From Chloroflexota bacterium (GTDB taxonomy: Bacteria; Chloroflexota; Anaerolineae; B4-G1; SLSP01), in the NCBI GenBank assembly GCA_022707705.1, contig JAKJAC010000021.1, positions 1-32,031 on the forward strand: a stretch of 32,031 nt of DNA, written 5' to 3'. The position numbers and the translations under genes were made by a program. The first letter of the stretch is position 1. Each line of letters begins with the position of its first letter. Positions 13,617 to 31,251 of this stretch are shown one piece after another. Under the pieces are notes generated by a model. It saw only the letters and a program-made list of their open reading frames with translations, was not told the origin of the DNA and ran no database searches.

Positions 13617-14426
13617 CTAACGCACAGGCTCCCCCTCAAGGAAGCAGACCAGGCCCTCAACGATACCTGCAGCAACCACGTCCTGGCGTTCCACCAACAA
13701 TTCGCGGTCATCCAACATGAAGCCTGTTTCAATGATTGCCGCAGGTGTATTCTGATGGATTTCATAAAAGGCATGATAACGCGTCATATCAAACGTGATG
13801 GTGTTGGCATCGAAGGGTAGCCCTGTGCGCGCGTGATAATACCGGCTGAGGCACGATACCAATATATCTTCGCTACCCGGAATATAACTGGATTCCGCCC
13901 GAGCCACCTTAAAACCGGTTTTGCCTGCATAAACACAGGAATCCGCATGAATTGAAACCAACACATTCGCTTGATAACCGGCGAGACGCTCATCAAACTC
14001 ATCGAGCAGGTCTACAGTCCAACCGCGCGCCCGCAACATGCCGGCAACCAGGTCGGCAACCTGAGCGTTAAGTTGTGCTTCCTGCAAGCCGTCAGGGCAT
14101 ATTGCGCCACTATCGCTGCCCGCATGACCCGGAACAACCCCCACGCGGATGACCTGGGGCGCAGGAGGTACAGGAGTGACCAGCGCAACCGGTCCCGGAG
14201 TGGGTGTCGGCGCCCCCAAGGGAATTAGCGCGGGACCGCCCTGTGATTCAGGCACAGCAATGGCGCCAGTGGCGACGGGAATAATGGGCACAAAACCCAG
14301 GGGCGCCAGCAATGCCAATCCAGCCGCCAGGATAACTAATCCACGCAGTAACAATCCAGCGGTCCAGGGATCCGCCTCTGATAAAACCACCGATTTGGCT
14401 CGGCTAACCGTTTTGCTCATCGTCAT
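13617..14426 (-). CDS. N-acetylmuramoyl-L-alanine amidase (Amidase_3), membrane-anchored
   Basis: A 269-residue protein with an N-terminal membrane segment at about 22-50, a Pro/Thr-rich linker (about 65-92) and an Amidase_3 (PF01520) domain to the end. The zinc and catalytic residues can be placed: H101 in VPGHAGSDSG, E116 in LQEAQLN, H160 in VSIHADS and E233 in IETGFM. The family cuts the bond between muramic acid and L-alanine in peptidoglycan, outside the membrane. The start is at 14,426 or two codons later (14,420); neither has a strong Shine-Dalgarno sequence. It follows the hydrolase gene by 17 nt. If the host follows monoderm Chloroflexota, the enzyme would act on whatever peptidoglycan is present; the domain evidence stands by itself. 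Confidence 0.9.
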   Translation of the reverse strand: MTMSKTVSRAKSVVLSEADPWTAGLLLRGLVILAAGLALLAPLGFVPIIPVATGAIAVPESQGGPALIPLGAPTPTPGPVALVTPVPPAPQVIRVGVVPGHAGSDSGAICPDGLQEAQLNAQVADLVAGMLRARGWTVDLLDEFDERLAGYQANVLVSIHADSCVYAGKTGFKVARAESSYIPGSEDILVSCLSRYYHARTGLPFDANTITFDMTRYHAFYEIHQNTPAAIIETGFMLDDRELLVERQDVVAAGIVEGLVCFLEGEPVR

Positions 14427-14443: not shown

Positions 14444-15232
14444 TCAACGCATTCGCCGGCGCCATTCGGCCTTCATTTCAATCGCATCCCAGTTATCCCG
14501 ATGGATAAGGAAATCCAACACCAACCGGGTAAATTTGCTGGTATCCTCCAACATGGGGAAATGCTGCACGCCATCCATCAACAGGATGTTCACATTTTCC
14601 TCCAGATCATCGATGATCCCATCTGCTGGAACTTGAATGAGCGGGTCTTGCGTGCCATACAAGAACATGACCGGTATATCCAATTCTTCGAGCAGCGACC
14701 CCAAATCCTGATAGGGGGCATTACGCAAGGTGTTGAGCACCGCATCCCCATCGGTTTTTGCAGCTTCCAAAGCGACTTCCTGATAATCACTGAGACGCCG
14801 CCCCAGAATACGCGCAGCAGGGTTCTCCCCACCGCCAAAACCGGTCAGCGTCCGGCTCATGCTCTCAGCGGCAAAGGGGACATTGGATAACAGCAATTGC
14901 TCTACCTGATCCGGATAGCGCTGCGCAAAGTGCAACGCCACAATGCCGCCAAGACCGTGGCCCACCAGAGGAATCTGTGGTAACCCCATCTGCTGCATGA
15001 ATAGCGCCACTTGCGCCACATAACTGTCAATCGAGTATCGCGAACGGTTCTTATCGGAATCCCCAAAGCCCCAGAAATCCAGCGCATAAGCGCGATAGGA
15101 TGAGGATAGCGCCACCATCGCAGGCACCCAGTAGCGCCATGAGCCAAGCCAGCCATGCAGGAAGAGCAGCGGCTTACCGCGGCCCAAAGCCTCATAATGA
15201 GCGAGGCTGCTTTCCAGAATGACGGCACTCAT
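14444..15232 (-). CDS. Alpha/beta hydrolase-fold protein lacking the nucleophile serine
   Basis: A 262-residue alpha/beta hydrolase. The oxyanion HGW at 26-28, DFWGFGDSD at 52-60, the acid D196 in LYGTQDP and H224 in VQHFPMLE are all in place. The nucleophile elbow, however, reads G-H-G-L-G-G (91-96), so the catalytic serine is a glycine (codon GGT at the corresponding position). The protein is therefore probably not an ordinary esterase; it may bind a ligand or use another mechanism. It is clearly a paralog of the hydrolase at 24,065-24,850, which has serine there: both share HYEA.GRGKP, WLGSW.YW and YALDFWGFG. The ATG at 15,232 has AAGGGG about 9 nt upstream. It lies 19 nt after the receiver gene. 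Confidence 0.87.
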   Translation of the reverse strand: MSAVILESSLAHYEALGRGKPLLFLHGWLGSWRYWVPAMVALSSSYRAYALDFWGFGDSDKNRSRYSIDSYVAQVALFMQQMGLPQIPLVGHGLGGIVALHFAQRYPDQVEQLLLSNVPFAAESMSRTLTGFGGGENPAARILGRRLSDYQEVALEAAKTDGDAVLNTLRNAPYQDLGSLLEELDIPVMFLYGTQDPLIQVPADGIIDDLEENVNILLMDGVQHFPMLEDTSKFTRLVLDFLIHRDNWDAIEMKAEWRRRMR

Positions 15233-15251: not shown

Positions 15252-15629
15252 TCACGCTTTACCGTGCTGCTGCAGGATTTGCTTCACCTGTTTAATCAAC
15301 TCGTCAGGTGCGAAAGGCTTGAGAATGTACTGCGTCGCGCCCGCGCTAAGTCCCTCTTGAATCTCGCTTTCTTGCCCCTTAGCTGAAAGAAAAACCACAG
15401 GAGTCGCCTGCATTTCTGGAATCTGCATCAACGCCGCACACGCCTGATAGCCCGTCATGCGTGGCATGCGCACATCCATCAGGATCAAATCCGGTTTCAC
15501 CTGTGGCGCCTTCTCCACCGCATCAGCGCCATTCACTGCCAATTCCACCTCAAAACCGGCAAACCGCAGGGTGAAAGCGATCAGCTCGCGAATATCGCGC
15601 TCATCTTCTGCTACGAGAATTTTTACCAT
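15252..15629 (-). CDS. Single-domain response regulator (CheY-like receiver)
   Basis: A 125-residue stand-alone receiver domain with acidic pocket E8/D9, phosphoacceptor D52 in LILMDVRMP, S82 at the Thr/Ser switch position and K104 in ILKPF. There is no output domain, so it probably relays phosphate or binds a partner. The ATG at 15,629 is 3 nt downstream of the stop of the hybrid histidine kinase, so the two are cotranslated and this protein is a likely phosphorylation target of that kinase. Confidence 0.95.
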   Translation of the reverse strand: MVKILVAEDERDIRELIAFTLRFAGFEVELAVNGADAVEKAPQVKPDLILMDVRMPRMTGYQACAALMQIPEMQATPVVFLSAKGQESEIQEGLSAGATQYILKPFAPDELIKQVKQILQQHGKA

Positions 15630-15632
15630 AAC

Positions 15633-18600
15633 TCACTCCTTGTTCCCAATCGCCCCTTCTACCAGGCGGGAAATCTCTGCGCCCAATTCCTCCATCGAGA
15701 AGGGCTTCGTCACGAAGCGCAATGCTCCCAGCGCTTCGATTTCGGGCGGCACTCCATCCGCCGGATCCGCAAAACCAGTCATAACCACCACCGGGATATT
15801 TGCCGTAGCAGGGTGCTGCTTCAAAGCTTTCAGCACTTGATAGCCATCCATGCCTGGCAACTTCAAATCCAACATGATTAACGCCGGTGGATTCTCCTGA
15901 GCCACACGCAAGGCGCGCTCCCCCCGCGTGGCTGTCCGCACCTGTAACCCTTGCGCGCGCAACGCTGTGCGCAACAAATTCAAGGTATCGCGGTCATCAT
16001 CCACCACCAGCACAGTCCCCTTGCTGGCTAACACACCATTGATGACAGTCAATAACCGTGGCTCGTCCAGTGGTTTGCTGAAATAGTCCACTGCTCCCAA
16101 CCGCAAGCCACGATCTTGGTCGAAGACGACCGAGACAATCACCACCGGAATCGCTGCGGTATCTGGGTTGCGTTTGAGTAATTGCAGCACCTCAAAGCCA
16201 TCCAGGTCGGGAAGGCGTATATCCAACGAAATCAAATCCGGTTGTTCAGTTCGTGCCAGATGCAGAGCCTTCTCACCGGTATTAGCCAACAAGACCTGGT
16301 GTCCTTCATGCTCCAGAGTGAGGCGTAACAACTCTGCAACCTCGGGATCATCCTCCACCACCAAAATGGTTGCCCCCAGGTTTACCCCAAAGCCTGCAGG
16401 AGGTTGCCCAACAGGGGCGGTAGATTCGCCTTCCGCCAGCGGGAAGGTCGTCGTAAAGATACTCCCTTCCCCAGGCTCACTCTCGACGAAAATGCGTCCG
16501 CCGTGCATCTGTACCAGCGAGGCAGTAATCGCCAGTCCCAAGCCGGTACCGCCAGCTTCCAACACTAGCGGATCATCCACACGATAGAAACGCGAGAAAA
16601 TACGGCTCTGGTCCTCAGGCGAGAGGCCAATCCCCGTATCTACCACGGCTACGTGGAGCATCTCCTCTTTCACATAAGCCTGAACTGTTACCTCGCCCCC
16701 AACCGGAGTGTATTTATAAGCATTCCCTACCAGATTGGTCAAAATCTGCACCACACGATCAGGATCTCCCCAAACCATAGGCAGTAACGGAGGCACAACG
16801 GTGTGAATACGAAGCCCTTTTTCTTTAATCTTGGGTGTCAGCGTCAAAACCACCTGAGAGATTAACTCGCCCATATCCACCGGGCGACAGTTGAGCTCCA
16901 CCTTACCGCCTTCGATGCGCGACATATCCAACAAATCATTGACCAGGCTCGTCAACCGATCAGCATTGGTTCGAATGACATTCAGGAATTGCATCTGCAT
17001 CTCATTGAGCGTGCCGGTAGCGCCCATGAGCAACAAATCCACGTAACCCTTCACCGAAGTCATGGGAGTGCGCAATTCATGCGAGACGGTAGAAACAAAC
17101 TCGCTCTTGGCCCGATCCGCTTCCACTTCTGCAGTGATATCACGGAATGCCGAAACGACCCCCAGAAATTCACGGTTCGGCGAAATCACCGGAGAGAGGT
17201 GCATACTCACCACTTGTCGCCCAATCTCCAGGCGCTCCGAAAGGAATTCACCGCTCTGGTAATTCGCGGGTTGCGCCCGCCACACCTCCACCTGCTCCAA
17301 CCAACCGCGCACCTTGCCGCCGTACAATCCCAATACGTCGCTCAAGAAACGTCCCACTGCCTGCGTTCTGCCCAGAGACAAGATTCGCTCCGCAGCAACG
17401 TTGAACAGAATGATCTTGCCAGTAGCATCTGCCACCAATACCCCATCAGCGATGCCTTCCAGGATGGCCTGACTACGGGCGCCCTCGTTCTGTTGTGCGC
17501 GTAACATTACGCCCACCCGCTCAGCCTGCTCACGAATCAACCGGTACAGCTCGGCGTTATTGAGTGCGTGCCCCACCTGCACCGCAGCTGCCTCCACCAG
17601 GCGCTGGTCGCTAATATCAAAAGCAGCCAATTCTTCAGCGTGCAGGAAAATCACTCCCGCGGCTTCATCCGCCGCCATAATCGGCACAGCCAATACTGAG
17701 CGCGTATTGTCCTCAATGGGAATCCAGCGCTCATCGAGGCGGACATCCGGGACAATCGCCGATTCCCGGTGTTTGAGCACCCACCCTACCAGGCCCTCAT
17801 TGCGATTGTAAACCGCACGCACCCCGCCCGGCGGAACGGATTTTTCTCCCCCCACCGAAGCCCGATGTTGCAGATGTCCCGTATTGTTATCCAACAACAG
17901 CACGGTAGCGCGTTCAGCACGCACAGCATCCTTGAGCATCAAGACCGTCTTGTACAATACGCGATCAATATCCAGACTGGCTACCAAGCCTGATGCGATT
18001 TCATACAGGATGGTCGAGCGGTCACGCTCATTACGCAAACTGCCCAGAGCATCCGCAAGTTCTGCGGTACGCACTTCAACGCGCCGCTCCAGCTCTACCG
18101 AGAAGTTTTTCACTTCCTCGAACAGTTGTGCATTTTCCACCGCCACCGAGATTTGGTCGGCAAGCATCGTAAGTGTTGCCACTTGTAAAGGCTCGATGGC
18201 GCCCACCTGCCGGCGCTCCGCACTCAGGACCCCCACGGTATGCCCCTCGACCTGCAGTGGCACAAGCAACGCTGATCCCACGGGCAATGCACCGGCAACA
18301 AAACGAGGGTCACTGCCCACATCATCCAGAGCCAACGGCATTCCCGACTCGGCTACCGCGCCGACAAGCCCTACACCCGGGTCTATCCGCAGGTCTTTGC
18401 CGAGGAAATCCAAATCGTAGCCAGATGAAGCGCGCGGTACAAGGCCTATCTGACCATGCGGCTGCAAGTAGACCGTTGCATAGTCATAGCCCAGCAAATT
18501 GGTAATCGCCTGCGCCACCGTGTTGAGGACCATAGGCAGGTCCAACTTGGTCGTAATAGAACGGCTGAGCTCATTGAGCAACATCAAGGTATTCAGCTGC

Positions 18601-20006
18601 AACCGCAGGTTCTCTACCAGTCGGTTGTTGGCAATGGCGACGCCAATTTGCGCCGCAAACAATTCCAAGACCTCCAGCGATGTGCGTGTAGGAGCTCGAC
18701 CATCAAGCGGCACGTCTACCGACAAATGCCCCAATACATCTCCCTGGGGACTGTAGAGAGGGACAATCAACATATCCTGTGGATGCCACGTGCCAGGACG
18801 GCGTACCTCTACGGCTGCCGCTTGAGGCTCAAAAACATCAATCTCGCCACGCCAAACGTGCTGTTGCTCAGCTGGGATATAGTAACAGTTGCCGATGCGG
18901 AATTGCTCCTGCAACAACCGGGCAATCTGCGCCCAGGGGCGACGCACCTGCTTGAGGCGTTCAAGGTCTGCCAACGGCATACCGGCGCCCGCCACACGCC
19001 GTACCATCGTGCCGTCCAATACGCTAATCAGCACGATTTCATAGCCCACGGCTTCCTGAGTGGCATACGCCATATCCAGCAAAGTTTCTTCCAGCGGGCG
19101 GTCTGAACGCATGGTTCGCGTAGCTTCCAACAGCAACCGCATTTGTTCGGCGCGCTGGCGCACCAGATTCCCCCGCAGCAGCTGCTCCTGGTAACGCCGG
19201 TCATTACCCACAGCTAACGCAGTTTGCGCTGCCAAACCCTCCACAAAATCTATCATCGCCGGGATAAAGGCGTTGGGACGACGACAATGCAAGACAATGA
19301 TGGCTGCCAGGTGCCCTTCATAGAACACTGGCGACCACAGTTCCGTGCGCATACCTGCATCGTGTGCAGGCGTTGAGCGCAGATTGGAAATGTCAGGCAC
19401 ATATCGGGTGACGGGTTGGCGCATGAACGCGACCATCGTCGGATCGTTTTCGTGATGGGCGAGGAAATCCTCAAAACCCGCCACCACCGAAGCCTCATAA
19501 CCCTCAGCTAGAGCCAATGTGGGTTGCTCTTCACGCCAAAGCCAAATCATTCCCGCATCAGCGTTGGTGAATTGTAGAGCCTCTTCGAGCACGAGCTGCT
19601 GAATGCGCCCCAGGTCAAGCGTGCTGGCAATCTCCTGAGTGATTCGCCGGAGTGCCTCCTCCGAAGCCAAACGCAGCGCCACCTCTTGCTCCATCTCACG
19701 GGTGCGTTGCACTTGCTTCTGCCAAACTGAAGTCAATACAGCAGCGGCTACCGCCAAAACCCCCGCATACAACCAATCGAGCAGCAGGGCAGAGTTTTGC
19801 AGCAGCACAGGCATCGCCAGCAAAAACAGAACCAGCGCCGTGAGCCACACACGCCGCTTCCATAACAAACCGCCTAATGCCGCCGGCAAAATCAGCAGAT
19901 ATAAGCCCAAAGGCTGCATACCTGTATAGAGCAGCAACAATACCAACGCGCCGCTCAATACTACCGCAGCCCATCCTGGCTGAAACGACCCTAAACGCTC
20001 GCGCAT
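15633..20006 (-). CDS. Hybrid sensor histidine kinase (TM, 4x GAF, PAS, HisKA, HATPase_c, 2x REC)
   Basis: A 1457-residue hybrid kinase. Four membrane segments at about 13-95 contain almost no external loop. Four GAF domains follow at roughly 120-270, 290-460, 470-630 and 660-820, then a PAS domain at about 845-960. HisKA has phosphoacceptor H976 in VSHELRTPMTSV; HATPase_c shows NLVGNAYKYTP near 1091-1101, DTGIG at 1123-1127 and GTGLGLAI at 1153-1160. Two tandem receivers end the protein, with D1262/K1311 and D1380/K1434. All catalytic residues are present. Sensing is probably cytoplasmic through the GAF/PAS domains, ligand unknown. The ATG at 20,006 has AGGA 5-8 nt upstream. A single receiver gene follows after 3 nt. 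Confidence 0.95.
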   Translation of the reverse strand: MRERLGSFQPGWAAVVLSGALVLLLLYTGMQPLGLYLLILPAALGGLLWKRRVWLTALVLFLLAMPVLLQNSALLLDWLYAGVLAVAAAVLTSVWQKQVQRTREMEQEVALRLASEEALRRITQEIASTLDLGRIQQLVLEEALQFTNADAGMIWLWREEQPTLALAEGYEASVVAGFEDFLAHHENDPTMVAFMRQPVTRYVPDISNLRSTPAHDAGMRTELWSPVFYEGHLAAIIVLHCRRPNAFIPAMIDFVEGLAAQTALAVGNDRRYQEQLLRGNLVRQRAEQMRLLLEATRTMRSDRPLEETLLDMAYATQEAVGYEIVLISVLDGTMVRRVAGAGMPLADLERLKQVRRPWAQIARLLQEQFRIGNCYYIPAEQQHVWRGEIDVFEPQAAAVEVRRPGTWHPQDMLIVPLYSPQGDVLGHLSVDVPLDGRAPTRTSLEVLELFAAQIGVAIANNRLVENLRLQLNTLMLLNELSRSITTKLDLPMVLNTVAQAITNLLGYDYATVYLQPHGQIGLVPRASSGYDLDFLGKDLRIDPGVGLVGAVAESGMPLALDDVGSDPRFVAGALPVGSALLVPLQVEGHTVGVLSAERRQVGAIEPLQVATLTMLADQISVAVENAQLFEEVKNFSVELERRVEVRTAELADALGSLRNERDRSTILYEIASGLVASLDIDRVLYKTVLMLKDAVRAERATVLLLDNNTGHLQHRASVGGEKSVPPGGVRAVYNRNEGLVGWVLKHRESAIVPDVRLDERWIPIEDNTRSVLAVPIMAADEAAGVIFLHAEELAAFDISDQRLVEAAAVQVGHALNNAELYRLIREQAERVGVMLRAQQNEGARSQAILEGIADGVLVADATGKIILFNVAAERILSLGRTQAVGRFLSDVLGLYGGKVRGWLEQVEVWRAQPANYQSGEFLSERLEIGRQVVSMHLSPVISPNREFLGVVSAFRDITAEVEADRAKSEFVSTVSHELRTPMTSVKGYVDLLLMGATGTLNEMQMQFLNVIRTNADRLTSLVNDLLDMSRIEGGKVELNCRPVDMGELISQVVLTLTPKIKEKGLRIHTVVPPLLPMVWGDPDRVVQILTNLVGNAYKYTPVGGEVTVQAYVKEEMLHVAVVDTGIGLSPEDQSRIFSRFYRVDDPLVLEAGGTGLGLAITASLVQMHGGRIFVESEPGEGSIFTTTFPLAEGESTAPVGQPPAGFGVNLGATILVVEDDPEVAELLRLTLEHEGHQVLLANTGEKALHLARTEQPDLISLDIRLPDLDGFEVLQLLKRNPDTAAIPVVIVSVVFDQDRGLRLGAVDYFSKPLDEPRLLTVINGVLASKGTVLVVDDDRDTLNLLRTALRAQGLQVRTATRGERALRVAQENPPALIMLDLKLPGMDGYQVLKALKQHPATANIPVVVMTGFADPADGVPPEIEALGALRFVTKPFSMEELGAEISRLVEGAIGNKE

Positions 20007-20095: not shown

Positions 20096-20989
20096 TCATG
20101 CTTTCCGGACTCGCCTACGCGCTTCAGCTGCTGCTTCCGTCACCTCACGAATATCTGTAAAGGGACCTTCATCCGCCGATAGCACGCCGACTTGCAAGCG
20201 CATCAACGGTACCTGTTTTTCTGCGCCATCGCTGTCACGAACAACCAGGTAGCCCTGCATGCGCGTCATAAAATCATAGTGGGTGCCCACATTTTCCTCA
20301 AAGCGCCGCTCCAATTCCTGTTTGAGCTGACCGGCAAGCGCCTTGCGAGTAATCACGATGAAATTATCCCCGCCTATATGTCCAATAAAATCCTCAGCCG
20401 AACCAAGGCTCTCCACCGTTTCGCTGAGCACCAACGCGGTGAAACGCAACACCTCCTCGCCCGCTACAAAGCCATAAACCTCGTTGAAGGCATCCAGTCC
20501 CGCAATACCGATATAGAGAATCCCCCAGTCTGTCAGGCGCAGCAGTTGCCGCAGCTGCTGTTCAATCAACCTGCCACTGGGCAAGCCAGTCGTGGGGCTG
20601 GTCAGGCTCTCAATCTCAGCACGTTTGATGGTATTCCTGACCCGTAACCGCAGCTCCTCCACATCGAAAGGCTTGGTGATGTAATCATCGGCGCCCAATT
20701 CCAAACCGTGGATTTTGTCGCTACGCTCGTCTTTCTGCGTGAGAAAAAGGATGGGAATGTGGCTCGTGCGCAGATTCGTGCGCAGCAGACGGCAAACTTC
20801 ATAGCCATCAATATCCGGCAACATAATATCCAAAACAATGACGTTCGGCAATAACTGCCGCGTCACCTCAAGAGCAACCTTTCCACGCGGCGCCACATGC
20901 ACTTCATATTCCAACGAGCGGAAATACAGCTGCAGCATGTTGGAGATATCGGAATCATCTTCCACTACCAGAATACGACCTTCACTCAT
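20096..20989 (-). CDS. Response regulator with receiver and degenerate GGDEF domain
   Basis: A 297-residue protein. The receiver (1-122) has E10/D11/D12, phosphoacceptor D54 in VLDIMLP, T84 and K106 in ITKPF. The C-terminal half (about 128-297) is a GGDEF fold starting at SPTTGLPSGR, with GLDAFNEVYG (164-173) where the DxD/F..xND segment sits. The signature reads GGDNF (206-210), so the second acidic residue is Asn and cyclase activity is doubtful; it may bind nucleotide or serve as an output scaffold. The ATG at 20,989 has an excellent AGGAGGT 6-12 nt upstream. It lies 89 nt upstream of the large hybrid kinase and 56 nt downstream of the AAR-like gene, and is a plausible phosphorelay partner. 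Confidence 0.9.
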   Translation of the reverse strand: MSEGRILVVEDDSDISNMLQLYFRSLEYEVHVAPRGKVALEVTRQLLPNVIVLDIMLPDIDGYEVCRLLRTNLRTSHIPILFLTQKDERSDKIHGLELGADDYITKPFDVEELRLRVRNTIKRAEIESLTSPTTGLPSGRLIEQQLRQLLRLTDWGILYIGIAGLDAFNEVYGFVAGEEVLRFTALVLSETVESLGSAEDFIGHIGGDNFIVITRKALAGQLKQELERRFEENVGTHYDFMTRMQGYLVVRDSDGAEKQVPLMRLQVGVLSADEGPFTDIREVTEAAAEARRRVRKA

Positions 20990-21045: not shown

Positions 21046-22116
21046 TTACCGCAAACTCGCTTTAACACGCGCGATGGTTCCTTCAGGCAGCTCGCGCTCG
21101 AAACTGCGCAATGCTGCTAGTTGGAACCCATGTTTTTCAGCCAAGGCATCTATTTCCTGCATACGCTCAAGAGACAACTCTTTACCCAAAGAATAATCTT
21201 CAAAACGTCCTTCCAATGCTAATGTCATCGTCTCAGCCACACAACCAAACGTCAGCGTTGGAGGAGGACCATAATCAAAACCAAAGTCCACCACCCCCGG
21301 GACCTGTGCCAACCCGCCATCAAAAACGAGCACATCATCTCGGGCTTGCGCCACTTTCCACGACACATCCCGTGGGCGTGAGACATCGCAGACCACCGCC
21401 CCACGACGCAGGTACTCCGGGCTCACCAGATTGCCGCCCGCGCTGGTCACCGTGATGACCACTTCCGCACGCTGAATATCGGCGACGGCGGTAGAAAGTT
21501 GGCATTCTCTGGCGCCCGCAGCACGCAACCGCGCTGCAGTAGACTCTAACCGCGATTCGTCTCGACCAATCAATAACAACGACCCGGCTTCGGCAGCCAA
21601 TCCTTCGGCTACCACGCTGCCAATAGCACCTGTCGCACCAACCACGGCGACCGTAACTGCCGCGAGGTCGTATTCCATACGGCGTAACGCCTCACGTACT
21701 GCGCGAATCGCCAATGCTGCCGTATAACTATCGCCCGATGTCACAGCGATATCCAGAGCTCGGGCAATCGTCACGCCGCCATCCCCCACCACCGAGGTAT
21801 ATGCGCCCAATCCCAGAACCTGCGCTCCCAGGCGTTCAGCCAATCGCCCCGCCGCGATAATCTTGCGATAAACCTCCGCTGGCGGCAAATGCAGCATCCG
21901 CTGCACCGTATACGGCACGGCAATCAACCATCCTTCAATCTCTTTCCCCGTCGTTACTGAGCGCACCCCGGTAACATGCGAAATATAGACGGGAGGCCAA
22001 AAACGAGAAAAGAAATCAATTGCCGGCGCCGGCAGCACGCGCCCCAGAAACGGGTACTTGCGCGCCACATCGCGTTTTGGCGACAAAGGATGAATGATAA
22101 AGGCAAAGGCATCCAT
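21046..22116 (-). CDS. Acyl-ACP reductase (AAR)-like oxidoreductase
   Basis: A 356-residue protein resembling cyanobacterial long-chain acyl-[ACP] reductase over its whole length (about 340 residues there). The NADPH-binding VAVVGATGAIGS lies at 156-167, GLGAYTSVV at 102-110 corresponds to the GGFTSII segment, DGGL at 266-269 to the NGG segment, and FGCVAETMTLALEG at 290-303 to the block with the thioester-forming cysteine, here C292. LSLERMQEI and AEKHGFQ near the end also match. AAR reduces fatty acyl-ACP or acyl-CoA to the aldehyde. No aldehyde-deformylating oxygenase is nearby, so an alkane pathway is not supported. The ATG at 22,116 lies 14 nt after the beta-helix gene. A shikimate-dehydrogenase-like label would rest only on the Rossmann part. 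The substrate is inferred from homology. Confidence 0.8.
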   Translation of the reverse strand: MDAFAFIIHPLSPKRDVARKYPFLGRVLPAPAIDFFSRFWPPVYISHVTGVRSVTTGKEIEGWLIAVPYTVQRMLHLPPAEVYRKIIAAGRLAERLGAQVLGLGAYTSVVGDGGVTIARALDIAVTSGDSYTAALAIRAVREALRRMEYDLAAVTVAVVGATGAIGSVVAEGLAAEAGSLLLIGRDESRLESTAARLRAAGARECQLSTAVADIQRAEVVITVTSAGGNLVSPEYLRRGAVVCDVSRPRDVSWKVAQARDDVLVFDGGLAQVPGVVDFGFDYGPPPTLTFGCVAETMTLALEGRFEDYSLGKELSLERMQEIDALAEKHGFQLAALRSFERELPEGTIARVKASLR

Positions 22117-22130
22117 AGATCGTCCGGATC

Positions 22131-23384
22131 CTAGCGTGGATAGAGACGTGGGTGTGCAGCATCCGGATCCGGCAATTTCCAGTGGTCGCTATCTTCATAA
22201 TTAATGTTCCGGTCAATGACCCGACGTTCAGGCGAAGCAAACAGAATCACATCCGACTCAATCATGCGTGCCGGAAAAATGATCATCCCGGAGCCAATAC
22301 GCACGTTATGACCGACCGCAGAGCCCACCACCGGCATTCCGGTGTTCTCCAGCTTCCCGGCAAAATGCGAACGAATGGGGATGCGCGGCACGAGATTGAA
22401 GTCAGTGAAAGTATTGCCCGCGCCAATAAATGTACCACGTCCTACCACACACATCTGTAAACAGGTATTCTGCGCCACCATGCAGTCTTCCATAAGCACC
22501 GACTCAAACAACGAGGCGCGAAACGGCATGAAGGTCCCATCACCCACAACACTCAAAAGCAACTGGCAACCATGAGAGATGTTGACATTGTTGCCCAGGA
22601 TACAATTAGCGACCATCGCCCCAGCGCCAATGGTCACATTATTGCCGATAATCGTGGGTCCCTGAATGGTTGCTGTCGGGTCAATTTGGCAATTCTTGCC
22701 AATCTGAACTAACTGCGTGCTGGCAAGCAACTGCCGGCGCTCCAGCATCGCCTGCCACAACAAGCGCAGATTAAGCCCCAAGTCCTTCTCCAGCGCCTGC
22801 TCAAAACGTGCTCCAATCGAGAAAATGCCAAACATGACGTTGGCATAAAGGATGTGAATCCAGTGCTCGATAGACAAGAATGCCTTGGTGGGCAGCTGAT
22901 AGACAAGGTCACCATAGGCGTTGGACATGTGAGTGGGAACATGATAATATCCTGCCTCACGCGGTTCCGTATGCATGAGCAGAGGACGGACTACAGGATC
23001 AACGCCATAGGGATAATACCAAAGGTCCGCAACATAGACATTGCCCTGACGCCGAATACCCCGCTGCAAATAGATAGCATGCTGCGAAATAGCGGGGTCA
23101 TCCAAATCGAAGGCTACCTGACACGCTTTGCCAAGTTTTTGCGCCCGAGCAATGAAATCATCAATGAAGGGCTGGTCGAAGTAGAGATTCTCGCGATAAA
23201 CCAACGTCTCGACGCGCTCGTTGCCAATCTCAGAAATCGAATCCGCCTCAACCTCTTCGGTCGTATAGCGTGCGAGAATATCCCGCTGATGCAGCCATAG
23301 AGGTTTCCCCAACACACTCAAATCGCGTGCCGGTTCGTTGAATGGTGAAAGTTTGCGCCTATCACGCAGGATAATCTTACGCAC
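22131..23384 (-). CDS. Left-handed beta-helix (hexapeptide-repeat) protein, nucleotidyltransferase-like
   Basis: A 417-residue protein. Residues 1-60 carry a PFNEPARDLSVLGKPLWLHQRD segment; the middle has a mixed region with a small membrane-like patch near 175-192 (HILYANVMFGIFSIG). From about 228 to 385 there are hexapeptide repeats with Ile/Val at every sixth position (IDPTATIQGPTIIGNNVTIGAGAMVAN and on), the fold of GlmU-type acyltransferases and sugar-nucleotide pyrophosphorylases. I do not see the N-terminal G.G.R nucleotidyltransferase signature, so an enzyme activity is not assured; acetyl- or acyl-transfer, or a scaffold, are possible. Start is GTG at 23,384 with AAGGA 9-13 nt upstream. 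It lies 12 nt after the V4R gene and 14 nt before the AAR-like gene. Confidence 0.82.
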   Translation of the reverse strand: MRKIILRDRRKLSPFNEPARDLSVLGKPLWLHQRDILARYTTEEVEADSISEIGNERVETLVYRENLYFDQPFIDDFIARAQKLGKACQVAFDLDDPAISQHAIYLQRGIRRQGNVYVADLWYYPYGVDPVVRPLLMHTEPREAGYYHVPTHMSNAYGDLVYQLPTKAFLSIEHWIHILYANVMFGIFSIGARFEQALEKDLGLNLRLLWQAMLERRQLLASTQLVQIGKNCQIDPTATIQGPTIIGNNVTIGAGAMVANCILGNNVNISHGCQLLLSVVGDGTFMPFRASLFESVLMEDCMVAQNTCLQMCVVGRGTFIGAGNTFTDFNLVPRIPIRSHFAGKLENTGMPVVGSAVGHNVRIGSGMIIFPARMIESDVILFASPERRVIDRNINYEDSDHWKLPDPDAAHPRLYPR

Positions 23385-23396
23385 AGAATCGCTTCC

Positions 23397-24068
23397 TTAT
23401 GCAGTCACGCTGGGCGCCCGCCCAATACGAAACATACAGGCAGGGTCGCCCAACCCAGCACATGTCACTTCCTCAACTTGAAAAGACCGCCCGCCACTTG
23501 CCCAATATAGTGTTTCCGAAAGCAGTCCTGTTACTATGGAGCAAGCTGGAGCAGCTACTTGTAACCCCCAACAAATGGCGCAGCGCTCCACGATCCACAA
23601 ATAACTTTCCGGCGTTTCCGTCAAGCGCACATGCTGACCAGAGTAGCGATTTAAGATCTCCGCCAGCACCTCCATACTCAGGCGTACTCGGAAAGAGAGC
23701 GGCAGAATTCTAAAAGCCACATCAGCAACGCTCAGCAAGCCCCCAAAATCCTTGATGCCGTGACGGAAAACGGCGTGTCCTGCGCGCAAAGAAAGCTGCT
23801 GTCCGCTGCGCGTCCCATGCATCTCATCAATCGCAGCATTCAATTGCGCCACTTCCGAAAAAGAAAGTGCGGGTTCGAAATTCGGCGGTAACGCCTGCTC
23901 TGCTAACTCGGGTAACCGCGCCAGGGTCAAAACCGCGCGCAGGCTGTTCGATCCGAGCACATCTTCCAGCGAGAACAACAAGAGACGCACCAGCTTGTTA
24001 GGAAAATACCCACCCTCGCGCGAATCCTGCGCCGCGACCCCAGTTTCAAGCCGCTGCGCCATACTCAC
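23397..24068 (-). CDS. V4R (4-vinyl reductase) domain protein
   Basis: A 223-residue protein with a helical N-terminal part and a C-terminal V4R domain (PF02830, about 150-215). The conserved cysteine set is visible: C163 and C166 in ERCAICWG, C176 in APACSIVTG, C203 in EVTCAGLGD and C211 in PACMFRI. V4R domains are thought to bind small molecules, including hydrocarbons or tetrapyrrole intermediates, and BchJ of bacteriochlorophyll synthesis belongs here, but no photosynthesis gene is in this window. The GTG start overlaps the TGA of the hydrolase gene by 4 nt (GTGA) and has GGA 7-9 nt upstream; an ATG at 24,062 is the alternative. In this operon it may sense a lipid-like ligand; that is inference. 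Confidence 0.83.
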   Translation of the reverse strand: MSMAQRLETGVAAQDSREGGYFPNKLVRLLLFSLEDVLGSNSLRAVLTLARLPELAEQALPPNFEPALSFSEVAQLNAAIDEMHGTRSGQQLSLRAGHAVFRHGIKDFGGLLSVADVAFRILPLSFRVRLSMEVLAEILNRYSGQHVRLTETPESYLWIVERCAICWGLQVAAPACSIVTGLLSETLYWASGGRSFQVEEVTCAGLGDPACMFRIGRAPSVTA

Positions 24069-24850
24069 TGCAATTCCAGGAAGCCCTGTACAACCTGATT
24101 GAAATGGTCTTTTTCATCCAACATGGGGAAATGCGCCGAGCCATCGAAATAGTGTAGTGATGCATGTTTTACACCGACCTGCAATACACGACCCTGTTTG
24201 GGGTCTACAATGTTGTCCTTCTTGCCGTAGACACCCATGGCTGGAATGCGCAGTTCGTGCAGGTGGGGACGCAAATCGGTGAAGCGCAAATCCCGAATAC
24301 TGTTTGAAAAAGAATCCATGGTGGTGCTGGACAAATCCTTCTGAAACATCTCATACCACGTACGCCAATCCCGCGCATAAAACCGCGAGGCAATCCGCAT
24401 ACCAAAGGCGAAAATACGCGGGAAACGATACAACAGCGCAGCAATCTGGCGGTTCCCTGCCAGCTTGAGAGGGATAGCCAGTCCAGAGCCGACGATAGGA
24501 GACCCTACCACCGCAACGCGCGAGACGCGTTGGGGATACATCAAAGCCAGGCTCAACGATACGGTCCCGCCCATGGAGTGTCCCATCACAGGCGCCTTTT
24601 CCAGCCCCAGGCGCTCCATGAACTGGTTCACCATCTCCACATATTCCACAACCGAGAAAGCGCCGTGTTTGGCAGACTCGCCAAACCCCCAGAAATCAAG
24701 CGCGTAGGTCTTATACTTGGGAGCCAAAAGCTGCATAGTCGGTAGCCAGTAGCTCCAAGAACCCAGCCAACAATGCAGCAAGATAACCGGTTTGCCGCGT
24801 CCGATGGCTTCGTAGTGTACAATCCCACGATCCGTAACAATGGCTACCAT
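24065..24850 (-). CDS. Alpha/beta hydrolase with intact catalytic triad
   Basis: A 261-residue alpha/beta hydrolase. The nucleophile elbow GHSMGG (90-95) gives S92, with D212 in VYGKKDN and H240 in SAHFPMLD. The oxyanion loop reads HCW at 26-28 where the paralog at 14,444-15,232 has HGW. It probably cleaves an ester, thioester or epoxide-like bond; substrate unknown. The ATG at 24,850 has GGGGTTGG upstream and starts the protein right before the first strand; the frame is open to a GTG at 24,877, judged less likely. It is the first gene of a tight group: its stop overlaps the V4R gene, then come the beta-helix and AAR-like genes. It lies 92 nt downstream of the GTPase. Confidence 0.9.
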   Translation of the reverse strand: MVAIVTDRGIVHYEAIGRGKPVILLHCWLGSWSYWLPTMQLLAPKYKTYALDFWGFGESAKHGAFSVVEYVEMVNQFMERLGLEKAPVMGHSMGGTVSLSLALMYPQRVSRVAVVGSPIVGSGLAIPLKLAGNRQIAALLYRFPRIFAFGMRIASRFYARDWRTWYEMFQKDLSSTTMDSFSNSIRDLRFTDLRPHLHELRIPAMGVYGKKDNIVDPKQGRVLQVGVKHASLHYFDGSAHFPMLDEKDHFNQVVQGFLELQ

Positions 24851-24942
24851 AACACCAACCCCAGCCTGATTTCCCACCTCTATAATAACACACCTACTCG
24901 ATCTGCGGGGAAAAGGGCTGTTGCGGTTTAGTTAAAAAATGG

Positions 24943-25482
24943 TTACTCTCCGCTTTGATCCATCACTTCAAGGATGGAATACAATAGCTCCAACAGCACT
25001 TGTTTCACGCTTTCGCGATTGCGCGCTATACAAGGCACCACCTTGATCCCCGGCTCGATCTTAAGTACAATGCGCAGGTCGTCAGGGGGCCAGGCATCTT
25101 TCATATCCTGTTTGTTGGCAGCCACGATGTAGGGTACTGGGGAATAAGCGCGGAAAGTATCCAGAATGCGCTGCGCCTCACGGAAGGTCTCCGGGCGAGT
25201 GCTGTCAACCATCACCACAAAGCCCAGCATGCCCTCAGAGAGAATCTCCCACATAAAATCAAAGCGGCGCTGCCCTGGGGTGCCAAATAGATAGAGAATG
25301 AGCTCTTCATCAATCGTGATACGACCGAAGTCCATGGCCACGGTCGTGGCTTCCTTGATACGTTCAGCGCGGCTAGAAATCTTCTTTTCGGTTGAAACCA
25401 CATCAATTTCGCTGACGCTCTGGATAAATTCTGTCTTGCCGGAGGAAAAGGGACCTGTCACTACGATTTTTAAGGTCTGCAT
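24943..25482 (-). CDS. MglA/Arf-like small GTPase
   Basis: A 179-residue Ras-superfamily GTPase of the bacterial MglA-like group. G1 is GPFSSGKT at 10-17, the switch I threonine lies at T46/T47 in EATTVAMDFG, G3 is FGTPGQ at 66-71, with Gly in place of the usual Asp before TPG as in many MglA-like proteins, and G4 is NKQD at 123-126. The G5 position reads CIARN (about 150-154) in place of SA. Such GTPases are cytoplasmic switches for polarity, motility or envelope functions. The ATG at 25,482 is 3 nt downstream of the DUF4388 gene, so the two are coupled. No Roadblock/LC7 protein is visible in the window; the DUF4388 protein is the obvious partner. Confidence 0.93.
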   Translation of the reverse strand: MQTLKIVVTGPFSSGKTEFIQSVSEIDVVSTEKKISSRAERIKEATTVAMDFGRITIDEELILYLFGTPGQRRFDFMWEILSEGMLGFVVMVDSTRPETFREAQRILDTFRAYSPVPYIVAANKQDMKDAWPPDDLRIVLKIEPGIKVVPCIARNRESVKQVLLELLYSILEVMDQSGE

Positions 25483-25485
25483 GGG

Positions 25486-26340
25486 TTAGAGCTCCCGGAT
25501 GCGGTCAATCAGCTTATGAATCAGACCCCGCTTAACATCGGGGCGACGCACAGTCGCATCCATGCGGTCTCGTTCCTCCACCTTGACGCTGCGTGGCTCA
25601 CCCACCGAGGCGTCAGTCACCTGTCGCGGCGGGCGGATGATTTCCACCAGGCCTGCCTGCAACAAGCCGTAGACAATCTTGCGAATCTGGAATTCGCTCA
25701 TGCTGTTATACTGCGCGATCTGCTGGATGGTGTTGCGCGGGTTCACGAAAGAAATCACCCGCCACTCCTCCACCGTCAAGTTCACATCGCGGAGTGGTGT
25801 GTTCGGCTTTTCGGCAAACTTGAGCGCCACATCGAGCGAGGGCAACTCATCCTGCAAGCGCTCGTATTCTTTAAGCCGCCGGCTTCCCTCCATAATCACG
25901 TTCTCTAACGCAATCGAGGTGACCAGTTTGCCCTGAATCGGAAGTTCCGCTGGCTCAAAACGGAATGTGCCTGTATTCCAGGAAAACACCCGGTAGACGA
26001 GATTGACAATATGCTGACGCACACTCTGCACCACTTCTTGTTGCTGAATGTGCCCGGATTGGATAAGCATCATCGCCACATCGCGATCGGGCTTGCCCGC
26101 CGCGTTTGCCGTGATGACACGCACCTGCTCAGCAGTCAGCTTGCCCGCTTGTTGCAGCAAAGGTAACAGTGATAGTTCCTGCCCATCAGCAGCTGCATAT
26201 ACCAGCGCGCCCTCGCGGAAGCACAGGTAGGCTTTGTTTTGTGGACCTTCGAGATAGAGAGTTCCAGTTTTGCGAGCCAGATTGATCAGGTTCAGCAGTT
26301 GCGTGATGCCGAAATCCTTCAGATTGCCTTTAAGTGCCAT
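25486..26340 (-). CDS. DUF4388 (PATAN) domain protein, likely GTPase partner
   Basis: A 284-residue protein. Residues 1-150 carry the DUF4388/PATAN pattern: MALKGNLKDFGITQLLNLINLARKTGTL at the start, EGALVYAAADG at about 43-53, and LIQSGHIQQQEVVQSVRQHIVNLVYRVFSWNTGTF near 97-131. The C-terminal part (about 187-240) looks like a winged helix (ISFVNPRNTIQQIAQYNSMSEFQIRKIVYGLLQAGLVEI). The family occurs next to MglA-like GTPases and in regulators of chemotaxis and motility. The ATG at 26,340 has AAGGACGG 7-14 nt upstream; the next gene, a GTPase, starts 3 nt after its stop. A possible promoter lies at 26,399-26,426. No membrane segment is seen, so it should be cytoplasmic. Confidence 0.88.
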   Translation of the reverse strand: MALKGNLKDFGITQLLNLINLARKTGTLYLEGPQNKAYLCFREGALVYAAADGQELSLLPLLQQAGKLTAEQVRVITANAAGKPDRDVAMMLIQSGHIQQQEVVQSVRQHIVNLVYRVFSWNTGTFRFEPAELPIQGKLVTSIALENVIMEGSRRLKEYERLQDELPSLDVALKFAEKPNTPLRDVNLTVEEWRVISFVNPRNTIQQIAQYNSMSEFQIRKIVYGLLQAGLVEIIRPPRQVTDASVGEPRSVKVEERDRMDATVRRPDVKRGLIHKLIDRIREL

Positions 26341-26655: not shown

Positions 26656-27156
26656 CTATCCAGACTTGAGGTTGCTCGCCTGCACCAGAAGGTCTTCCGC
26701 GCCTTGGAGCGCGGCGGCGCCCTGCGTCCCCAACATCTGCGCCAATTCGTCCAATCGCGCCCTAGACTCCAGACGCCGCACCAGAGCAATTGTGCGTCCA
26801 TCCGTGACGGTTTTTTCCACCCCATAATGGACATCACCAAACGCCGCCAATTGCGGCAGGTGTGTAATACACAACACCTGATGCCCCGGTTGCCCGACGC
26901 CTTCGACTTCTGGATAGGAGGACTGCGTGAGACGCCACAACTTGGCGCCTACCACAGTTCCTACCCGTCCACCAATGCCTTGATCAATTTCGTCAAAAAT
27001 CAGGGTCGGAGTGCGGTCAGCGCGGGAGAGGACCGTCTTGAGAGCCAACATCAGGCGCGCCGTCTCGCCGCCGGAGGCAATTCGCGCCAGGGGTTTGAAG
27101 CCTTCTCCCACATTGGGGGCAATCAGAAACTCGACCTGTGCTATCGAAAGCAGCAT
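26656..27156 (-). pseudogene. recN: recN, C-terminal part (frameshifted)
   Basis: This frame holds the C-terminal third of the DNA repair ATPase RecN: QVEFLIAPNVGEGFKPLARI at the start, the ABC signature region ASGGETARLMLALK at about 27-40, Walker B LIFDEIDQGIGG at 52-63, and THLPQLAAFG with its His. The ATG at 27,156 is incidental, because it lies inside codons of the N-terminal part in another frame; the real junction is around 27,131-27,146. The piece cannot make RecN alone, since Walker A is in the other frame. If the shift is a sequencing or assembly error, this and the next entry form one recN gene of about 606 codons. The stop at 26,656 is at the normal distance after the ATPase core. 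Confidence 0.8.
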
Positions 27157-28471
27157 GAGATACCCGGGCAGCTATTTGCAGCTCTGCGTTCCCCGCCGTT
27201 AGCCACACCTCCGCAGGCTGAGCCTGTTCCACCGGCAAGGCAGAAGCATCCGGTTCCCAACGGAATGCCACCCCGAAACGGGTCCCCGCCATCCGCAGAT
27301 CCCCAAGTTCAGCCTCCACGCCCGTAGCAAGGCGTACCGCCGCTTCCCGTCGCGCAGCAGAAAGGGCAGCGCAGAGCTGACCCGCTGTCTCACTGCACGT
27401 TGCCGCTTCTTGCTCTAGCGCTGCAACACGCTCATCACTGTGCTCCAAAACCTCCAGTTCCGCTGCAATTTTGGTCGCATAAGACAAAATCTCCGGGATA
27501 TCGCCACCGTATTTGCGCTGTAGCCCGTGAATCAAGACCAGACGCTCTTCCACTTGCTGCAACCGTCGGGGATTGAACTCTATCCCGCCCAAATATTCCC
27601 GTAGAAAACCTGCCAGGTCTTCAATCTGATAAACGGCTTCCAGCCAGGCAGTCTCTTTTGCACTCAACGAAGGGTCCACACGGACCAGCGCTGCCATCTC
27701 GCGTTGCCCCTTTCCCAATAAATCCAGCACCGCGGGCGATTCTTCCGTGCCCTCCTCGAGCAGTGTCAGCAATGTCGAGGTCAATGCAGCTAGCTGCTCA
27801 GCATTTGCCAGGCGGATGCGCTCAGAATTGAGCTCTGCCTCCTCATCAGAGTGCAATGCAGCCGTGGTGATCTCCTGCAGCTGAAAGCGCAACAAATCCT
27901 GACGTTGTATACGCGTACGCTCATCCTGCCTCAGCGCATGCAGCTCCCGCCGCACTGCCTGTAACTGCCGAACGGCATCCGCTACCTGCCCGCGCAGTTC
28001 CCAGAGGTCGGCAAAACGGTCAAGCAGGTTGACATGTTCTCCTACACGCAACAGGCTGAGATGCTCACTTTGCCCATGGATATCCACCAGGTTCTCGCCA
28101 ATCTGCCGCAACAGCGCGACTGAGACGACTGTCCCATTTACCCGCGCTATAGAGCGTCCAGTTTCGCGCAGTTCACGGCTCAGCCAAAGCGCGTCAGGCG
28201 TCTCGGCTTCCAGACCCTCTTGCGCGAGCAGCGGCGCCAGCAGCGCCTGCTGTCCGGCATCGAGCAAGAACATCCCCTCAACCAAAGCGCGCGTTGTCCC
28301 CTCGCGGACGACAGTGACATCAGCGCGCCCCCCCAGCAGCAAGATCACCGCATCAATCAGGATTGATTTCCCGGCACCCGTCTCGCCAGTGAGGATGTTG
28401 AATCCTGGCTCCAGGCTCAAATGCAGCTCATCAATAATCGCAAAATCGCGGATATGCAGTTCTCTTAACAC
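27017..28471 (-). pseudogene. recN: recN, N-terminal part (frameshifted)
   Basis: The frame encodes the first 75% of RecN: ELHIRDFAIIDELHLSLE at the start, Walker A TGETGAGKS near residues 29-37, the RecN-typical VDIHGQSEHLSLL at about 136-148, and long coiled-coil arms (about 165-380). RecN is an SMC-like ATPase for double-strand-break repair. At 27,131-27,146 the sequence AAFDSTG, conserved in RecN, leaves the frame and continues as an unrelated tail to a stop at 27,017, while VEFLIAPN continues in the +1 frame. The start is taken as GTG at 28,471 with GAGGG about 6 nt upstream; TTG at 28,477 is possible. It is divergent from the mevalonate genes. Confidence 0.82.
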
Positions 28472-28549
28472 ACACAACCCTCACACAACAGAATAGGAGC
28501 CTATCCGAAGCCTATGGCGGCGATACGACGTTCCGTCAAGGCTGCGGTC

Positions 28550-28893: not shown

Positions 28894-30177
28894 ATGCCTG
28901 AGGAGCGTAATTCCCGTATTGCGGGATTCTACAACCTTGAGTTCAATGAACGCCTGCAGCTGCTCACCGAGTGGGCTGCGCTGAACGCCGAAGAGCAAGC
29001 AACGCTCTCCGGCGCTTTGGGGTTGAATGTAGAGCGCGGCGCACACATGATTGAGAACGTCGCCGGCGTTTATGGCTTGCCGCTAGGCATTGCCACCAAT
29101 TTCACGGTGAACGGACGCGATGTGCTGGTTCCCATGGTCATCGAGGAACCCTCAGTGGTCGCCGGCGCCTCGCTGGCAGCAAAACTGGCCCGCGCGGGCG
29201 GTGGCTTCAAAGCCAACACCAATGCGCCGGTCATGATCGGGCAACTGCAAGTTGTGAATCTGGAGGACCTGGCTACGGCGCGCGCGCAAATCCTGAAGGA
29301 GAAAGAAGCGCTCCTCGCGTTAGTGCATGCGGTAGACCCGGTACTGGTCCAGTTAGGCGGTGGCGCGCGGGATCTGGAAGTGCGCCTGCTGCCCGATACC
29401 GCAACAGGTCCCATGCTCATCGTGCACCTGCTCTACGATGTCCGTGACGCGATGGGCGCCAACGCCATCAACACTGCCTGCGAACGTCTCGCACCCGAAG
29501 TCGAACGATTGACAGGGGGCAAAGTCTTCCTGCGCATTCTCAGCAATCTAGCAGACCGGCGTCTGGCGCGTGCCGAAGTAGTCATTCCGGAGAGCGCCCT
29601 GGCATTCAATGCCTTCACCGGTGAAGTTGTGGCTACCGGGATCGAGAAGGCTTGGGCTTTCGCTGAAGCAGACCCTTACCGCGCCACCACCCACAACAAA
29701 GGCATTATGAATGGCATTGATGCCGTTGTGATTGCCACAGGCAATGACTGGCGGGCCATCGAAGCCGGGGCACACGCCTACGCTGCCCGCGACGGGCGCT
29801 ACACCAGCCTGAGCACGTGGCGGCGCGATGGACAGGGCAATCTCACCGGCAAACTGGAGCTGCCCCTGGCGCTAGGTATTGTCGGAGGGGCAACACGTGT
29901 GCATCCAACCGCACAAATCGCACTCAAGATCCTGGGAGTGCAAACCGCCCGCGAACTGGCAGAGATCGTTGTCAGTGTCGGCTTGGCGCAGAATCTTGCT
30001 GCCATCCGTGCTCTGGCAACGGAGGGCATCCAGAAAGGACACATGAGCCTGCATGCCCGGCAAGTCGCTATGGCTGCCGGCGCCACGGGTGAGGCTATCG
30101 AACAGGTTGCACAAGCCATGATCGCTGAAGGCGTGATCCGTGTGGATCGTGCAACTACATTGTTGAAGGCTTTATAG
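28894..30177 (+). CDS. Class II hydroxymethylglutaryl-CoA reductase
   Basis: A 427-residue class II HMG-CoA reductase, the size of the Pseudomonas mevalonii type, without the membrane anchor of the eukaryotic class I. Catalytic residues can be placed by motif: Glu in IEEPSVVA (84/85), K269 in THNKGI, D285 in ATGNDWRA and H387 in HMSLHARQ. DAMGAN at 185-190 is the cofactor/dimer motif. It interconverts HMG-CoA and mevalonate. Class II enzymes include catabolic NAD-linked ones, but followed here by HMG-CoA synthase and thiolase it must work in the biosynthetic direction, toward isoprenoids. The ATG at 28,894 has GGGGG 4-8 nt upstream. The stop is 9 nt from the next start, so it heads the operon. 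Confidence 0.95.
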   Translation: MPEERNSRIAGFYNLEFNERLQLLTEWAALNAEEQATLSGALGLNVERGAHMIENVAGVYGLPLGIATNFTVNGRDVLVPMVIEEPSVVAGASLAAKLARAGGGFKANTNAPVMIGQLQVVNLEDLATARAQILKEKEALLALVHAVDPVLVQLGGGARDLEVRLLPDTATGPMLIVHLLYDVRDAMGANAINTACERLAPEVERLTGGKVFLRILSNLADRRLARAEVVIPESALAFNAFTGEVVATGIEKAWAFAEADPYRATTHNKGIMNGIDAVVIATGNDWRAIEAGAHAYAARDGRYTSLSTWRRDGQGNLTGKLELPLALGIVGGATRVHPTAQIALKILGVQTARELAEIVVSVGLAQNLAAIRALATEGIQKGHMSLHARQVAMAAGATGEAIEQVAQAMIAEGVIRVDRATTLLKAL

Positions 30178-30186
30178 GAGGCAACT

Positions 30187-31251
30187 GTGGCAGAACGTTG
30201 GACGATGCATCCACAACGCCCAGTCGGCATCATTGGATACGGCTCTTATATACCGATGTACCGCCTGCCCAATGCAGAAATCAGCCGCATCTGGGGCAGT
30301 GGCGATGAAGGTGGTCCGATCAAGGAAAAAGCCGTCGCCGGATTGGATGAGGATACCATTACCATCTCCATTGAAGCTGCGCGTAACGCGCTAAGCCGCG
30401 CCGGCATTGATCCGGAGGGCATTCGCGCCGTCTGGGTAGGCAGCGAGTCGCATCCCTACGCCGTCAAACCCAGTTCGACCGTGGTCGCGGAAGCCATTGG
30501 CACATCACCTTTTCACCTGGCGGCAGACCTGGAATTCGCCTGTAAAGCCGGCACGGAAGCATTACAAGCTGCCATCGGATTAGTTGGCGCGGGCATGGCA
30601 GAATATGCCATGGCCATCGGCGCAGATACAGCCCAGGGACGTCCCGGTGATGCACTGGAGTATACGGCTGCCTGTGGCGGCACTGCCTTTATCGTCGGAC
30701 CGGCTGAAGAAGCGCTCGCGGTTCTGCGTGGTTCGCTCTCTTTTGTGAGCGACACGCCCGATTTCTGGCGCCGCGCCTATCAGCACTATCCGAGCCACGG
30801 AGGGCGCTTCACGGGCGAACCGGCTTACTTTCGCCACATTCAATCGGCAGAAGAAGCGCTGCTGCACGAATTGGGCATGGAAGCTCAAGATTTTACCTAC
30901 GCTATTTTCCACCAGCCCAATGTCAAATTTCCGCAACGGGTAGGCAAGCGCCTGGGCTTCACCAAAGAACAGCTTGAACCAGGTCTGATCAGCAATGTCA
31001 TCGGCAACACGTATGCTGGCGCAGCCATAACGGGTTTCTCAGCGACGCTGGATATTGCCAAACCGGGAGACCGCATCCTGGTGGTCAGCTTCGGCTCTGG
31101 AGCAGGCTCCGACGCCTTTGTATGGGAAGTCACCGAAGCGCTGGAAGCGCGACGGCATAAGGCGCCGCTTATCGCAGACTACATCGCCCGGCGGGTCGAA
31201 ATTGACTATGGCTTGTACGTCCGCTATCGCAGCAAGCTGCTGGTGAAGTAG
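30187..31251 (+). CDS. Hydroxymethylglutaryl-CoA synthase (archaeal type)
   Basis: A 354-residue HMG-CoA synthase of the archaeal type (about 350 residues; eukaryotic forms are longer). Nucleophile C119 lies in EFACKAG, the His in IFHQPN is H242, and the catalytic Glu is probably E87 in GSESHP. The glycine-rich [13 protein letters not shown] near the end is also typical. It condenses acetoacetyl-CoA and acetyl-CoA to HMG-CoA. The start is GTG at 30,187, with AGGAGG 6 nt upstream; the ATG six codons later lacks a ribosome site. It lies between reductase and thiolase genes, and the thiolase starts 9 nt after its stop. In archaea this enzyme and the thiolase form a channelling complex with a DUF35 protein; the same may hold here. 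Confidence 0.95.

Follow-up and report, generated by a model that had tools for sequence, protein, structure and literature searches.

The window, by which we mean the whole 32,031-nucleotide stretch of a Chloroflexota contig that was analysed, carries a conserved cluster of signalling and lipid-metabolism genes found in Chloroflexota of the class Anaerolineae, broadly defined. Each part of the cluster is a member of a known superfamily; the analysis shows its gene content, order and conservation, and the folds and residues of its products. A fatty-acyl-reductase-like enzyme, an ester hydrolase and a protein that probably binds lipid lie in near-fixed order beside a small GTPase and a two-component pair, an arrangement that suggests a regulated system for handling lipids, as yet undescribed. 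The source assembly (456 contigs, 4.8 Mb, 77.6% complete) has its nearest named relatives among Anaerolineae/Thermoflexia MAGs of the Chloroflexota.

The original prediction described a single four-gene unit encoding a hydrolase, a V4R protein, a hexapeptide (left-handed beta-helix, LbH) protein and an acyl-ACP-reductase (AAR)-like enzyme. All four open reading frames are confirmed, each on the minus strand; the 4-nt overlap of hydrolase and V4R, the 12-nt gap from V4R to hexapeptide and the 14-nt gap from hexapeptide to AAR are reproduced exactly, and the proposed families match the Pfam and NCBIfam results. One unit it remains, with different boundaries, since the run extends on the same strand to both sides: the four genes occupy the centre of a longer unit whose upstream members (GTPase and DUF4388 protein) and downstream members (response regulator or RR, hybrid kinase, single receiver, second hydrolase and amidase) had been missed. 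Transcription proceeds in the order DUF4388/PATAN, MglA-type GTPase, hydrolase, V4R, hexapeptide, AAR-like, receiver–GGDEF-like regulator and hybrid histidine kinase, followed by looser members:

25486..26340, minus strand: DUF4388 (PATAN-like) protein, opening the conserved unit (Pfam PF14332, E 8e-28)
24943..25482, minus strand: MglA-family small GTPase (Pfam Ras/Arf/ATP_bind_1)
24065..24877, minus strand: alpha/beta hydrolase (Abhydrolase_1, E 5e-29)
23397..24068, minus strand: V4R protein (PF02830, above cut-off)
22131..23384, minus strand: predicted pseudo-nucleotidylyltransferase with left-handed beta-helix (LbH, hexapeptide; AlphaFold fold match)
21046..22116, minus strand: acyl-ACP-reductase-like NAD(P)-dependent reductase (profile matches to 4ppm and 6jzq)
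20096..20989, minus strand: response regulator, receiver plus degenerate GGDEF (Pfam Response_reg, GGDEF)
15633..20006, minus strand: hybrid histidine kinase (Pfam GAF domains, PAS, HisKA, HATPase and two receivers)
15252..15629, minus strand: single-domain receiver, looser member (Response_reg, E 7e-30)
14444..15232, minus strand: second alpha/beta hydrolase, looser member (Pfam)
13617..14426, minus strand: amidase, downstream on the same strand

The first hydrolase probably starts at the ATG at 24850, the start originally chosen and the position at which its relatives also begin. Promoter and terminator scans performed like shuffled sequence, with nothing above it. Elsewhere in the window, recN (26662-28477) is broken by a frameshift near 27134-27144, its halves being 86-89% identical to RecN of a close relative, where the frame is intact and 610 residues long, and the break is either a sequencing error or a real lesion; at 28894-31251 a degradative-type (class II) HMG-CoA reductase adjoins an archaeal-type HMG-CoA synthase, a mevalonate-type pair that is kept beside the unit in near relatives.

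The lack of a conserved neighbourhood in related genomes had been named at the outset as grounds for abandoning the prediction. Synteny is in fact conserved: DUF4388, GTPase, hydrolase, V4R, LbH, AAR and RR (the kinase not being counted) lie in the same order and on the same strand in 18 of 20 wide loci, and the neighbourhood is found in most of 80 genome loci, some sharing a genome, that were scanned via the LbH profile out of 349 confirmed relatives. Counting for each gene only those loci whose contig is long enough to hold it, DUF4388 is in place in 49 of 54, the GTPase in 52 of 57, the hydrolase in 61 of 68, V4R in 58 of 74 (some lineages have no recognisable V4R), AAR in 63 of 74, RR in 64 of 68 and the kinase in 55 of 65; for the single receiver and the second hydrolase the counts are 29/56 and 29/55. 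LbH, RR, hydrolase, GTPase and DUF4388 make up the stable core. The clustering is far beyond chance, since the order persists in many families of the class, down to protein identities of about 40-65%. V4R, LbH, RR and kinase, at times together with the hydrolase, remain linked in several genomes of other classes. The unit also occurs (L086, 1-5092) on a contig labelled as an Archaeoglobales archaeon, which is probably a misbinned Chloroflexota contig.

The AAR-like protein has 356 residues and no Aminotran_3 domain; its family profile matches the N-terminal domain of PigE (4ppm, E 8e-56, profile positions 4-355) and cyanobacterial AAR (6jzq, E 1e-41). Cys292, which we take to align with the catalytic cysteine of AAR, is conserved in 84 of 84 sequences, as are Gly160, Gly163 and Gly166, likewise aligned with 6jzq. 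The likely fatty-acyl reductase of the original prediction is thus homologous to solved acyl-ACP reductases, with a putative catalytic cysteine conserved. Falling below the cut-offs of both named equivalogs (107.1 bits against 449.7 for TIGR04058, cyanobacterial AAR; 206.8 bits against 850 for NF053554, PigE), it is best treated, judging from its sequence, as a separate subfamily. Homology to AAR might suggest that hydrocarbons are produced as in the cyanobacterial AAR/ADO pathway, a reading that we consider highly improbable: the protein does not reach the TIGR04058 cut-off, many hosts of the unit are anaerobes, and ADO (PF11266) was found in 0 of 60 genomes by a search that detected it in the control Synechococcus elongatus, so that an alkane pathway is nearly excluded.

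AAR is tightly linked to the unit yet dispensable. In 13 of 14 loci LbH and AAR stand 3-61 nt apart, and an AAR-like protein is present at E < 1e-69 in 47 of the 60 nearest genomes (source genome included). In a 301-genome sample of the phylum LbH and AAR-like proteins each occur in 53 genomes, both in 49, one alone in 4 and 4, and neither in 244 (Fisher p ~1e-46, with no correction for phylogeny, which confounds co-occurrence). They occur together even in families whose AAR-like domain lies elsewhere, in the sequences read at the C-terminal side of a protein of 690-780 residues whose N-terminal part has no Pfam match. A Chloroflexota protein with an uncharacterised N-terminal domain of about 300 residues fused to an AAR-like domain is encoded at 6033-8087 of L133, where a hydrolase gene overlaps the fused gene by 4 nt, and similar fusions, 680-760 residues long in all, are found in L134-L138; at L139 (6018-8567) a Chloroflexota protein joins an N-terminal class III aminotransferase to a C-terminal AAR-like domain, the PigE pair in swapped order. 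A plasmid search with AAR returned mostly aminotransferase-fused PigE-like proteins. Ten genomes carry LbH without an AAR beside it, and in eight of them no AAR-like gene exceeds the threshold; part of the contigs are incomplete, and gaps could account for some of the eight. Because the other genes persist where AAR is absent, AAR looks like an output enzyme rather than part of the core, and the unit is more than just a pathway to an aldehyde. Of the lipid or wax-aldehyde modification system originally proposed, the wax branch has no support: a search for WS/DGAT wax ester synthase gave no match, a weak test, as the control genomes gave none either.

The full triad originally reported for the hydrolase is borne out, Ser101, Asp221 and His249 being near invariant (80, 84 and 85 of 85 sequences). 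The hexapeptide protein fared differently. An AlphaFold model built from 74 sequences (pLDDT 83.8, pTM 0.86, with low confidence at residues ~210-290; a model from 20 sequences was of low quality, at pLDDT 64.5) predicts a GT-A-like N-domain followed by a hexapeptide C-domain, and matches ST0452 (Z 29.6, 3.0 A, 318 residues) over residues 1-402 and the GMPPA/GMPPB complex (Z 21.3). The signature GG.GTR is present in 0 of 74 LbH sequences and G.G.R in 1 of 74; the N-domain has no sequence match, and a profile-profile comparison against nucleotidyltransferases of the same genome covers the helix part only. Instead of the acyltransferase-like beta-helix protein first suggested, the model thus predicts a nucleotidyltransferase-type fold along the whole length of a protein that lacks the catalytic signature, and on these two grounds the protein is likely a pseudo-enzyme or neofunctionalised. 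A plasmid search with it found nothing.

Close to the original prediction is the reading that these enzymes simply form an operon for making an unusual lipid of the membrane or envelope (an aldehyde, alcohol or ether lipid), with regulators that control transcription only, which is consistent with the conserved reductase cysteine, the hydrolase triad, the hexapeptide domain and the tight LbH-AAR linkage. We consider it rather unlikely: within the unit no enzyme is recognised that would act next on the aldehyde, the signature of nucleotidyltransferases is missing from the hexapeptide protein, AAR is the dispensable part, and MglA/PATAN proteins are not, to our knowledge, usual regulators of transcription.

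The regulatory side of the cluster begins with DUF4388, which presumably corresponds to the PATAN domain, and with a GTPase whose motifs (G1 GPFSSGKT, G2 TT, G3 GTPGQ and G4 NKQD) are present in 77-78 of 78 sequences. MglA Group 5 proteins have GxxxxGK[TS], threonine in place of arginine in G2, GTPGQ in G3 and [NT]KxD in G4, and their genes sometimes lie near PATAN genes (PMC4316618); assigned by motifs, the GTPase fits this group. No gene for an MglB/Roadblock partner lies inside the window unit. Receiver residues D54, T84 and K106 of the RR are conserved in 78 of 78 sequences; its GGDEF site reads GGDNF in the window, the fourth residue being D in 45, N in 28 and E in 3 of 78, and the protein does not match the diguanylate cyclase active site GG[DE]EF.

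The V4R protein scores 35.8 bits against PF02830 (cut-off 31), and the Cys-rich ligand-binding domain of the original prediction proves to be of this type. It carries a putative zinc site, C176/E200/C203/C211, conserved in 61-66 of 67 sequences and aligned with the zinc residues of MopR/PoxR-type sensors, in which zinc is held by three cysteines and one glutamate (PMC10715001). V4R is homologous to Bet3/TRAPPC3, and has been proposed as the ancestor of this key eukaryotic vesicle-tethering subunit (PMC2253512); V4R/TRAPPC3 folds take hydrophobic ligands (PMC2253512, PMC10933270), mouse TRAPPC3 having palmitate bound (PMC10933270). By this homology the window V4R is predicted to be a bacterial relative of TRAPPC3/Bet3; the TRAPP Pfam model is absent among matches at E <= 1 for 18 V4R members.

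A Roadblock gene is found in a sister locus. The sole Roadblock/LC7 gene detected in the source genome, 77.6% complete, lies at C33:21060-21329 and is followed by the genome's second V4R (36% identical to the window V4R); the locus also holds an RR paralogue (43% identical to the window RR). Among 30 Roadblock loci examined in the source genome and its relatives, a V4R gene comes next in 25. A Roadblock-V4R-receiver operon of this sister type, kept in relatives, lies at 9028-10969 of L168. L146, from a related class, has two Roadblock genes at a single locus that also holds genes for DUF4388, GTPase, V4R, LbH and hydrolase. A full-text literature search for V4R, Roadblock and GTPase returned archaeal work only, and in the Asgard strain MK-D1 GTPase genes generally share no operon with genes for TRAPPC3 or Roadblock (PMC10933270).

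An MglA Group 5 GTPase beside a PATAN-type gene, a hybrid kinase and RR with non-canonical GGDEF, and a Roadblock-V4R sister operon are what one might expect of an MglA/PATAN-kind regulator of cell polarity, motility or surface sensing, with accessory enzymes acting on a signal molecule. We are doubtful of this interpretation: no motility genes are recognised within the unit, and the metabolic genes are nearly as conserved in position as the regulators.

Our tentative preference, held at somewhat less than even confidence, is for a module in which a GTPase and a two-component system sense acyl-lipid chemistry and regulate it. Specifically, i) V4R would bind a hydrophobic ligand such as an acyl chain, fatty aldehyde or alcohol; ii) it would signal the ligand to two pairs, MglA-type GTPase/PATAN and histidine kinase-receiver; iii) these switches would set where or how fast acyl chemistry runs; iv) the AAR-like enzyme would turn an acyl thioester into an aldehyde by means of Cys292 and NAD(P)H; v) the hydrolase would add or take off acyl groups; and vi) the pseudo-nucleotidyltransferase/beta-helix protein may be a multimeric scaffold or regulatory subunit, or else a neofunctionalised enzyme. 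We wish to stress that we infer the ligand, the reaction, the product and every interaction between the parts; physical interaction does not follow from a shared operon. In a bolder variant, which we think distinctly unlikely, a Bet3/V4R-fold lipid sensor, an MglA-type GTPase and Roadblock, spread over two sister operons, would follow a TRAPP-like logic and mark or remodel membrane domains, the acyl-thioester reductase, hydrolase and pseudo-nucleotidyltransferase serving as effectors.

The original statement that no pathway of this make-up has been described agrees with our search of a literature collection with few subscription journals, and within the same scope neither the pseudo-nucleotidyltransferase family nor the V4R-GTPase and V4R-Roadblock sister operons were found to be described. 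Across a whole bacterial class V4R shares an operon with an MglA-type GTPase and, at a sister locus, immediately follows Roadblock; with acyl enzymes alongside as well, this arrangement makes it directly testable which partners and which ligand V4R has. The favoured reading would assign a regulated role to non-cyanobacterial AAR-like reductases, in hosts that are widespread, little-studied environmental bacteria.

Comparison with known systems places the parts as follows. The AAR-like protein shares with cyanobacterial AAR (TIGR04058; the 6JZQ family) near full-length homology, the Rossmann motif GATGAIG, and the catalytic cysteine with the glutamate after it, but it lies under the cut-off, has no ADO partner, and has signalling genes as its fixed neighbours; its best solved relative is the N-terminal domain of PigE (prodigiosin; PDB 4PPM), which, unlike the window protein, comes with a class-III aminotransferase domain. 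The LbH protein resembles the sugar-1-phosphate nucleotidylyltransferase/acetyltransferases (ST0452, GlmU, GMPPA/B, eIF2B epsilon/gamma) in whole-length fold, and differs from them in lacking GxGTR and any N-domain sequence match. The window V4R has the zinc ligands of MopR/PoxR/DmpR (Cys, Glu, Cys, Cys) at equal spacing (Glu-x2-Cys-x7-Cys), but stands alone, with no AAA or DNA-binding domain, and at the level of sequence aligns weakly and in the C-terminal part only (E 0.05). With MglA Group 5 proteins that have PATAN neighbours, and with the actinobacterial conservons (CvnABCD), the unit shares the GTPGQ and TT motifs and a GTPase near a kinase; Roadblock lies outside the window unit, in the sister locus or in another class, and the G4 motif of conservon Group 2 is NxFD whereas that of the window GTPase is NKQD. 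Unlike either, the window unit adds V4R, the pseudo-nucleotidyltransferase, AAR and hydrolase. We place the cluster with GTPase signalling of the MglA/PATAN type and not in the AAR/ADO system.
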